Of a stretch of DNA of 64,000 nt, positions 40,664-42,794 are shown one piece after another; the first letter of the stretch is position 1, and each line of letters opens with the position of its first letter. The translations under genes and the position numbers were made by a program. Where the stretch lies: positions 62,001 to 126,000 of the forward strand of contig JABSOM010000002.1 in the NCBI GenBank assembly GCA_013215945.1, written 5' to 3'. The notes under the pieces are model-generated. The model was not told the DNA's origin and made no database searches. It saw only the letters and a list, made by a program, of their open reading frames with translations. Source of the stretch: Campylobacteraceae bacterium. Its GTDB lineage: Bacteria > Campylobacterota > Campylobacteria > Campylobacterales > Arcobacteraceae.

Positions 40664-40763
40664 TAGGAAAAATAGTTTGGATCTTATTTTTTAGAGTGAA
40701 TATGAATTAGGAGAAAAAAGAGCAGTAAAAATTAAATAATACATGCTTATATAATTGCGAAAT

Positions 40764-40781
40764 TGTCTTTTTTTTCCAATT
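40764..40781 (+). promoter_or_regulatory. Shared regulatory box TGTCT-T7-CCAATT, copy A
   Basis: The 18-bp sequence TGTCTTTTTTTTCCAATT is identical to 42256-42273. This copy lies 44 bp before the ATT start of the flavodoxin-fold gene, and the other 50 bp before the DoxX gene. The AraC gene lies between them, so it is the likely regulator of both. Confidence 0.6.
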
Positions 40782-40825
40782 TATTTTTTTTCATTTTATA
40801 TATACTTCTAAAAAAAGGATATATC

Positions 40826-41362
40826 ATTTCACACACAACACTTGTCATTATGGCTCACCCAAATATAGAAGGTTCAACATTTAATAAATATATAAAAGAA
40901 GAGTTAGAGGGGGCTAAGAATGTAATATACAAAGATTTAAGTTCTTTATATCCTAATTTTAAAATAGATGTTAAAAAAGAACAAGAAGATCTAATGAAAG
41001 CATCACGAATAGTTTTTCAGTTTCCTATGCAGTGGTACTCAAGTCCTGCTATTTTAAAACAGTATGTGGATTTAGTATTTGATTATGATTTTGCATATAA
41101 GATTGAAGATGGTACTTTTCAAGCCTTGCATTTAAAAGAAAAAGAATTTCGCTTATTAGTGACTATTGGCTCAAAAGAAGAGTCTTTTAGTGGAAAAGAC
41201 AGACTAAGTGTAAAAGAGTGTTTAAATGCCTATTCTTATACAGCAAAGATGTTAGGAATGAAAGAACTTGATCCTTGTTTGATTTATGGGACTGTTTATG
41301 AAAAATTTGGAAAAAAAGATTTTAGACAAATTACTAACTTACTAAAAGAATATATAGTATAA
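40826..41362 (+). CDS. Flavodoxin-fold NAD(P)H oxidoreductase with ATT start
   Basis: A 178-residue protein of the NAD(P)H dehydrogenase (quinone)/KefF-like family: TTLVIMAHPNIEGSTFNKYI (FMN-binding beta 1 loop), then ASRIVFQFPMQWYSSPAILKQYVDLVFDYDFAY (Q-F-P-x-x-W-x-x-x-P-A-x-L-K) and a GIGS-like VTIGSKEESF. No ATG precedes beta 1; an ATG at 40850 would delete the first strand. ATT 40826 has AAGGATAT at the same 3-bp spacing as the ATG of DoxX, whose leader is similar, so ATT is my start. It probably reduces quinones or other electrophiles under AraC control. Confidence 0.85.
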   Translation: MSHTTLVIMAHPNIEGSTFNKYIKEELEGAKNVIYKDLSSLYPNFKIDVKKEQEDLMKASRIVFQFPMQWYSSPAILKQYVDLVFDYDFAYKIEDGTFQALHLKEKEFRLLVTIGSKEESFSGKDRLSVKECLNAYSYTAKMLGMKELDPCLIYGTVYEKFGKKDFRQITNLLKEYIV

Positions 41363-42255: not shown

Positions 42256-42273
42256 TGTCTTTTTTTTCCAATT
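42256..42273 (+). promoter_or_regulatory. Shared regulatory box TGTCT-T7-CCAATT, copy B
   Basis: Identical to 40764-40781. It begins 1 bp after the AraC stop, and the leader continues to AAGGATAT-AGA-ATG of the DoxX gene. Confidence 0.6.
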
Positions 42274-42323
42274 AATATATTTTTTCTTATTGTATTATTC
42301 TTAAAATTTTTTAAGGATATAGA

Positions 42324-42794
42324 ATGAATACAAGTACGTTTGATGAAAAAAGATATATAATTCTTTTTGTACGTCTGGCTATTGGAATAGCTTTTTTATC
42401 TGCTGTTTTTGATAGAGTTGGATTATGGGGAAACCCTGGAGATATTAATGTTGCTTGGGGAAGTTTTAAACTTTTTGAAGATTATGTAGCTTATCTAAAT
42501 CCCTTTTTATCAATTGCTTTAGTTACGATTGTTGCTTATTTTGTAACTGTATTAGAAGTAGTATTAGGAATAATGTTAATACTTGGCTTTAGATTAAAAC
42601 TAGTAGCTTTATTAAGTGCTACTTTGCTTTTGATTTTTGCTTTAAGCATGACTGTTATTATGGGAATTAAAGCACCTTTAGATTATTCCGTTTTTAGTGT
42701 TAGTGCAGCATCTTTTTTACTTTATTTGTTTATTAAAGAAAAAGAAAAAGCAGATGAATTATGGAATGCAAAAGAAAAAGCATTAAATGTTTGA
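42324..42794 (+). CDS. DoxX family membrane protein
   Basis: A 156-residue protein with four membrane segments (about 12-30, 58-82, 88-110, 114-134). The pattern LFVRLAIGIAFLSAVFDRVGLWG and the later LEVVLGIMLILGFRLKLVAL (E-[VI]-x-x-G-x-x-L-[IL]-x-G) are typical DoxX features. DoxX proteins are linked to redox stress and membrane quinone chemistry. It shares a regulatory box with the oxidoreductase two genes upstream and probably belongs to the same AraC regulon. Confidence 0.88.
   Translation: MNTSTFDEKRYIILFVRLAIGIAFLSAVFDRVGLWGNPGDINVAWGSFKLFEDYVAYLNPFLSIALVTIVAYFVTVLEVVLGIMLILGFRLKLVALLSATLLLIFALSMTVIMGIKAPLDYSVFSVSAASFLLYLFIKEKEKADELWNAKEKALNV

Follow-up and report, generated by a model that had tools for sequence, protein, structure and literature searches.

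A probable ATT start codon in an Arcobacteraceae oxidoreductase gene and candidate AUH starts recurring in the family

The oxidoreductase cassette

The window (the whole 64-kb stretch of DNA analysed here) belongs to a genome of 3.24 Mb in 28 contigs whose nearest named relative is Arcobacter sp. NORP36, which is metagenome-assembled. It contains a three-gene cassette in which an oxidoreductase gene is followed by the gene for an AraC-family regulator and then by doxX. The genes and the elements discussed below are as follows.

40764..40781, + strand: 18-bp box TGTCTTTTTTTTCCAATT, of format TGTC-N2-T4-N3-CAATT, putative operator of the AraC/DUF6597 protein
40801..40806, + strand: predicted -10 element TATACT within TATATACTTCT, the latter conserved across loci
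40815..40819, + strand: Shine-Dalgarno sequence AAGGA, 6 nt ahead of ATT
40826..40828, + strand: ATT start codon, the same in the sister species (L031/L002), with ATG of homologues at or near this column
40826..41362, + strand: oxidoreductase gene, a KefF-like Flavodoxin_2 NAD(P)H oxidoreductase of 178 aa
41394..42254, + strand: AraC-family regulator with a DUF6597 domain (PF20240 and PF12833)
42256..42273, + strand: second copy of the box, 5' of doxX, identical to the first at 18 of 18 positions
42313..42317, + strand: doxX Shine-Dalgarno sequence AAGGA, 6 nt ahead of the ATG at 42324
42324..42794, + strand: DoxX-family membrane protein with an ATG start (PF07681)

The oxidoreductase is a member of the Flavodoxin_2 family (PF02525, E 3.4e-36; 125.3 bits against a gathering score of 27), and it shares the fold family and the N-terminal beta strand with the KefF-type enzymes (NF002044, PDB 5lva, 3eyw). 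Although the KefF type is the closest in sequence, the score of 132.3 bits against the KefF equivalog NF002044 lies below the curated cut-off of 210 and, in contrast to KefF, the protein is accompanied by AraC and DoxX. The AraC gene begins 31 bases 3' of the oxidoreductase gene, on the same presumed message, and has its own Shine-Dalgarno sequence and ATG.

An ATT start behind a well-placed Shine-Dalgarno sequence

The first-pass annotation had proposed that the oxidoreductase reading frame offers no ATG, GTG or TTG upstream of its first beta strand other than one distant TTG, and that initiation at ATT would yield an N-terminus normal for the family. Both statements are borne out. The only in-frame standard codon 5' of the ATT, a TTG at 40763, overlaps the 18-bp box, and the next one 3' is the ATG at 40850, which already falls within beta strand 1 (LVIMAHP). 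In the alignment with the solved relative 5lva (E 1.5e-25), query residue 5 pairs with residue 3 of the solved chain, where the match begins, and nearly all homologues read have their ATG either in the column of the ATT or at the next codon. Across 1.66 Mb of this genome the spacing between AAGGA and ATG peaks at 5-6 bases; the ATT, at a spacing of 6, is therefore correctly placed, and the ATC just before it, which could in principle serve as a start at 3 nt, is not. Little structure is predicted in the leader. Judged from these letters, the gene lacks a usable ordinary start codon and almost certainly begins at ATT, and the best explanation is that the ATT is decoded by initiator tRNA to give the N-terminus (M)SHTTLVIMAHPN.

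Comparison with relatives points the same way. The oxidoreductase of the sister species has 93% amino-acid identity, and its gene shares both the ATT and the AAGGA-N6 ahead of it; the alignment of the two species from box to ATT is ungapped, the stretch AAAAAAGGATATATCATTTCACA, with its ATT, is identical, and ATT plus AAGGATATATCATTTCACA is shared while the sequences differ elsewhere. In the paralogue cassettes of the same genome (G000) and of G001, ATG occupies the very column of the ATT; in the orthologues of G036, G101, G105 and G122 the ATG lies one codon 3'. A dN/dS of about 0.27 between the sister species indicates purifying selection and argues that the gene is still in use. The ATT is carried by these two species only. 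As no more than 5 of the 51 fourfold sites in the gene differ between them, the shared ATT argues only weakly for selection on that codon itself. The sister species, the homologue alignment, the spacing and the independent AUH-start genes of Arcobacteraceae described below together give the ATT start strong support at the level of sequence.

Promoter architecture and the 18-bp box

The leaders of the oxidoreductase and doxX genes had been described as a duplication. The box and AAGGA-N6 are indeed common to both, while the stretch between them is merely T-rich in each; duplication was rejected, as the boxes vary between genera yet agree within a cassette. In G036, which holds the complete three-gene cassette, both boxes read TGTCGTTTTTTTACAATT, as against TGTCTTTTTTTTCCAATT for both boxes of the window, and the box of the paralogue cassette, which encodes an AraC of its own, is TGTCGCTTTTGTACAATT. 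Such matching within and difference between cassettes suggests sites of one regulator rather than a copied leader. When up to three mismatches are allowed, the window has one further match, a 3-mismatch site.

Relatives in other genera share the same promoter plan, in which TGTC-N9-CAATT is followed in turn by a spacer rich in T, by TATATACTTCT or a sequence close to it, and by AAGGA and ATG. TATATACTTCT recurs exactly or nearly so, and at nearly equal distance, in L002, L003, L029, L030 and L032-L034; a generic sigma-70 scan gave no match here. With TATACT as the -10 element, the transcript would start at about 40810-40814, 3' of the TTG. Those Arcobacteraceae boxes that are backed by a -10-like element and AAGGA adjoin AraC/DUF6597-like genes; of the exact matches to the loose box pattern across the family, most have no connection with the cassette and appear fortuitous. 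Matching sites thus occur at promoters flanking the regulator gene and are kept across genera, as for AraC operators, and the AraC protein whose gene lies between the two copies of the 18-bp box probably uses the box as its operator, to judge by sequence and position.

A further copy of the AraC box, at L055:1502-1570 (G000:C7:175859), is an orphan; it is accompanied by a TATATACTTC element and by AAAAAAGGAGG, and an AraC-like C-terminal segment lies upstream. The ATA-headed frame behind this copy was considered as an AUH gene and rejected, being only 21 codons long.

Other AUH starts in this genome and in Arcobacteraceae

About half of this one genome (1.66 Mb) was scanned for open frames preceded at the right distance by AAGGA or AGGAG and lacking a standard start both upstream and over the next eight codons. 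Four further genes starting with AUH (ATT, ATC or ATA) were upheld after comparison with relatives.

G000:C7:11712-12857 (L212): HI0933/YhiN-like flavoprotein, ATA start, from the scan and relatives
G000:C1:341215-342093, - strand: DUF234 protein, ATC start, with ATC/ATT in relatives of other genera
G000:C1:86895-88043 (relatives L200-L211): histidine kinase, ATA start, overlapping a response-regulator gene
G000:C3:43562-44104, - strand: 180-aa protein, ATT start, with ATC in the copy of the sister species

Those hits with codons other than AUH that were inspected, by eye, resembled antisense frames or genes with a good ATG or GTG a little way downstream; in a looser scan, which admitted weak Shine-Dalgarno cores and internal positions, matches inside genes predominated.

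The HI0933-like gene is the strongest AUH case on sequence grounds. It appears to start with AUH in 68 of 76 Arcobacteraceae genomes (ATC 36, ATA 20, ATT 12), exactly six bases after AAGGA in 67 of the 68, the codon nearer to a spacing of 6 having been taken where two AUH codons were possible. Seven of the other eight genomes have ATG, GTG or TTG, and one was left unclassed by the rule. In most genomes an in-frame stop lies only 2-6 codons 5' of the conserved IGAGASG motif, so close that a standard start is impossible. The third base of the start varies by lineage, and a start that stays AUH while this base drifts is hard to reconcile with error or decay. Elsewhere in the order, families other than Arcobacteraceae mostly have ATG, GTG or TTG at the start of the gene.

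For the DUF234 protein, only ATC, ATT or ATA is available at the start in eight of nine readable relatives and ATG is found in one, with row L191 left out as misregistered at a contig edge. Relatives of the histidine kinase also start with ATC, ATT or ATA, but here the start is constrained by the response-regulator frame that it overlaps, and its Shine-Dalgarno sequence is supplied by the region encoding RGVGY at the end of the response-regulator gene. The 180-aa protein has no Pfam match. The infC gene of this genome (G000:C16:56898, L061) seems to start at TTG, unlike the AUU/AUA of E. coli or S. aureus.

Precedents for AUU and AUA initiation

Natural AUU starts are already known from infC and pcnB of E. 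coli and from cvfC1 of S. aureus, and the oxidoreductase adds another case. The two E. coli genes resemble it in the initiation of a protein-coding gene at AUU, and they are different genes; the autoregulation by IF3 at infC is specific to infC. Translation of pcnB is limited by its inefficient start codon, to go by the title of a paper cited in PMC13009471. In S. aureus, cvfC1 starts at AUU and ccpN and citZ at AUA; in poor medium AUU or AUA combined with a strong Shine-Dalgarno sequence gave about 10% of AUG expression, and for one of these starts the figure was about 30% when the medium was rich (PMC13009471). The cvfC1 gene is the closer parallel in that AUU heads a first gene behind a strong, conserved Shine-Dalgarno sequence and in that a non-AUG start is, there too, retained between species (PMC13009471). 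S. aureus differs in being a member of the Firmicutes with extended Shine-Dalgarno pairing, and its starts were shown by ribosome profiling and reporters (PMC13009471), whereas that of the oxidoreductase is predicted from sequence. The oxidoreductase combines the absence of a usable standard start with Shine-Dalgarno spacing, the position of homologue starts, and retention between species (two close ones). A literature search of incomplete coverage found no paper on non-canonical starts in Arcobacter, and the recurrent use of AUH in Arcobacteraceae may be new.

Alternative readings

Translation might instead begin at one of the two flanking standard codons. The TTG at 40763 is the sole one upstream and would add 21 residues (MSFFSNLFFFILYILLKKGYI). 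However, it has no Shine-Dalgarno sequence, overlaps the conserved box and lies 5' of the conserved -10-like element, so that a transcript beginning just ahead of AAGGA would exclude it from the message; moreover, in the sister species the matching codon is followed in frame, five codons on, by TAA, so the extension is not a shared feature, and homologues lack it. Initiation there is highly improbable. The ATG at 40850 (MAHPN...), although it is the first ATG of the frame, is very unlikely to be the start, given that it would delete most of a beta strand present in homologues and in 5lva and that it too has no Shine-Dalgarno sequence, while a perfect one stands ahead of the ATT.

The ATT could also be an artefact or a relic. 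It is a single base away from ATG, as an error of sequencing (a possibility raised in the first-pass annotation) or of assembly might produce; the assembly of a second, diverged species carries the same letter, so that the error would have to have occurred twice, which is scarcely credible. A loss of the start codon by mutation in the genus ancestor, leaving a gene now barely expressed or decaying, would fit the confinement of ATT to two close species and the roughly 10% of AUG expression obtained from non-AUG starts in S. aureus (PMC13009471). Against it, the reading frame is intact in both species under the dN/dS given above, the box and the Shine-Dalgarno sequence are retained, and another AUH-start gene has been retained across Arcobacteraceae; we consider such decay unlikely. 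The joint best explanation, to which we assign a probability of about 0.88, is that the oxidoreductase starts at ATT, that the boxes are bound by AraC, that AUU damps output of the enzyme, and that the gene belongs with a recurrent set of AUH starts in Arcobacteraceae.

Proposed mechanism and implications

Under the preferred reading, initiation at ATT, the AraC protein of the cassette would bind the 18-bp boxes and control doxX as well as the oxidoreductase-araC operon. Transcription would begin just ahead of AAGGA, and the ribosome would be recruited through the strong Shine-Dalgarno sequence and the open leader. The AUU would be accepted inefficiently, being discriminated against by IF3, and output of the enzyme would fall far below that expected of ATG; with AraC provided with its own Shine-Dalgarno sequence and ATG, the weak ATT would presumably shift the balance from enzyme towards regulator. 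The AUU may also let enzyme output follow the state of the initiation machinery, and the damping is possibly IF3-dependent. By analogy with the precedents (PMC13009471), a regulatory role of the ATT start is plausible.

A broader proposal, which we hold at somewhat better than even odds, is that Arcobacteraceae selectively and routinely use AUH starts in a set of conserved genes, holding translation low or IF3-sensitive lineage-wide, with the HI0933-like start non-AUG in most of the genera examined and the oxidoreductase ATT a recent addition. Should ribosome data bear it out, the use of AUH across the family would be more surprising than the single ATT start. For annotation, gene finders restricted to ATG, GTG and TTG misplace the starts of AUH genes or trim the first strand of their products. 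For the biology of the family, an AUH start that persists across it with a changing third base suggests selection on the weak start itself, and the role of non-AUG starts, an old question, becomes testable by one base change in cultured Arcobacteraceae.
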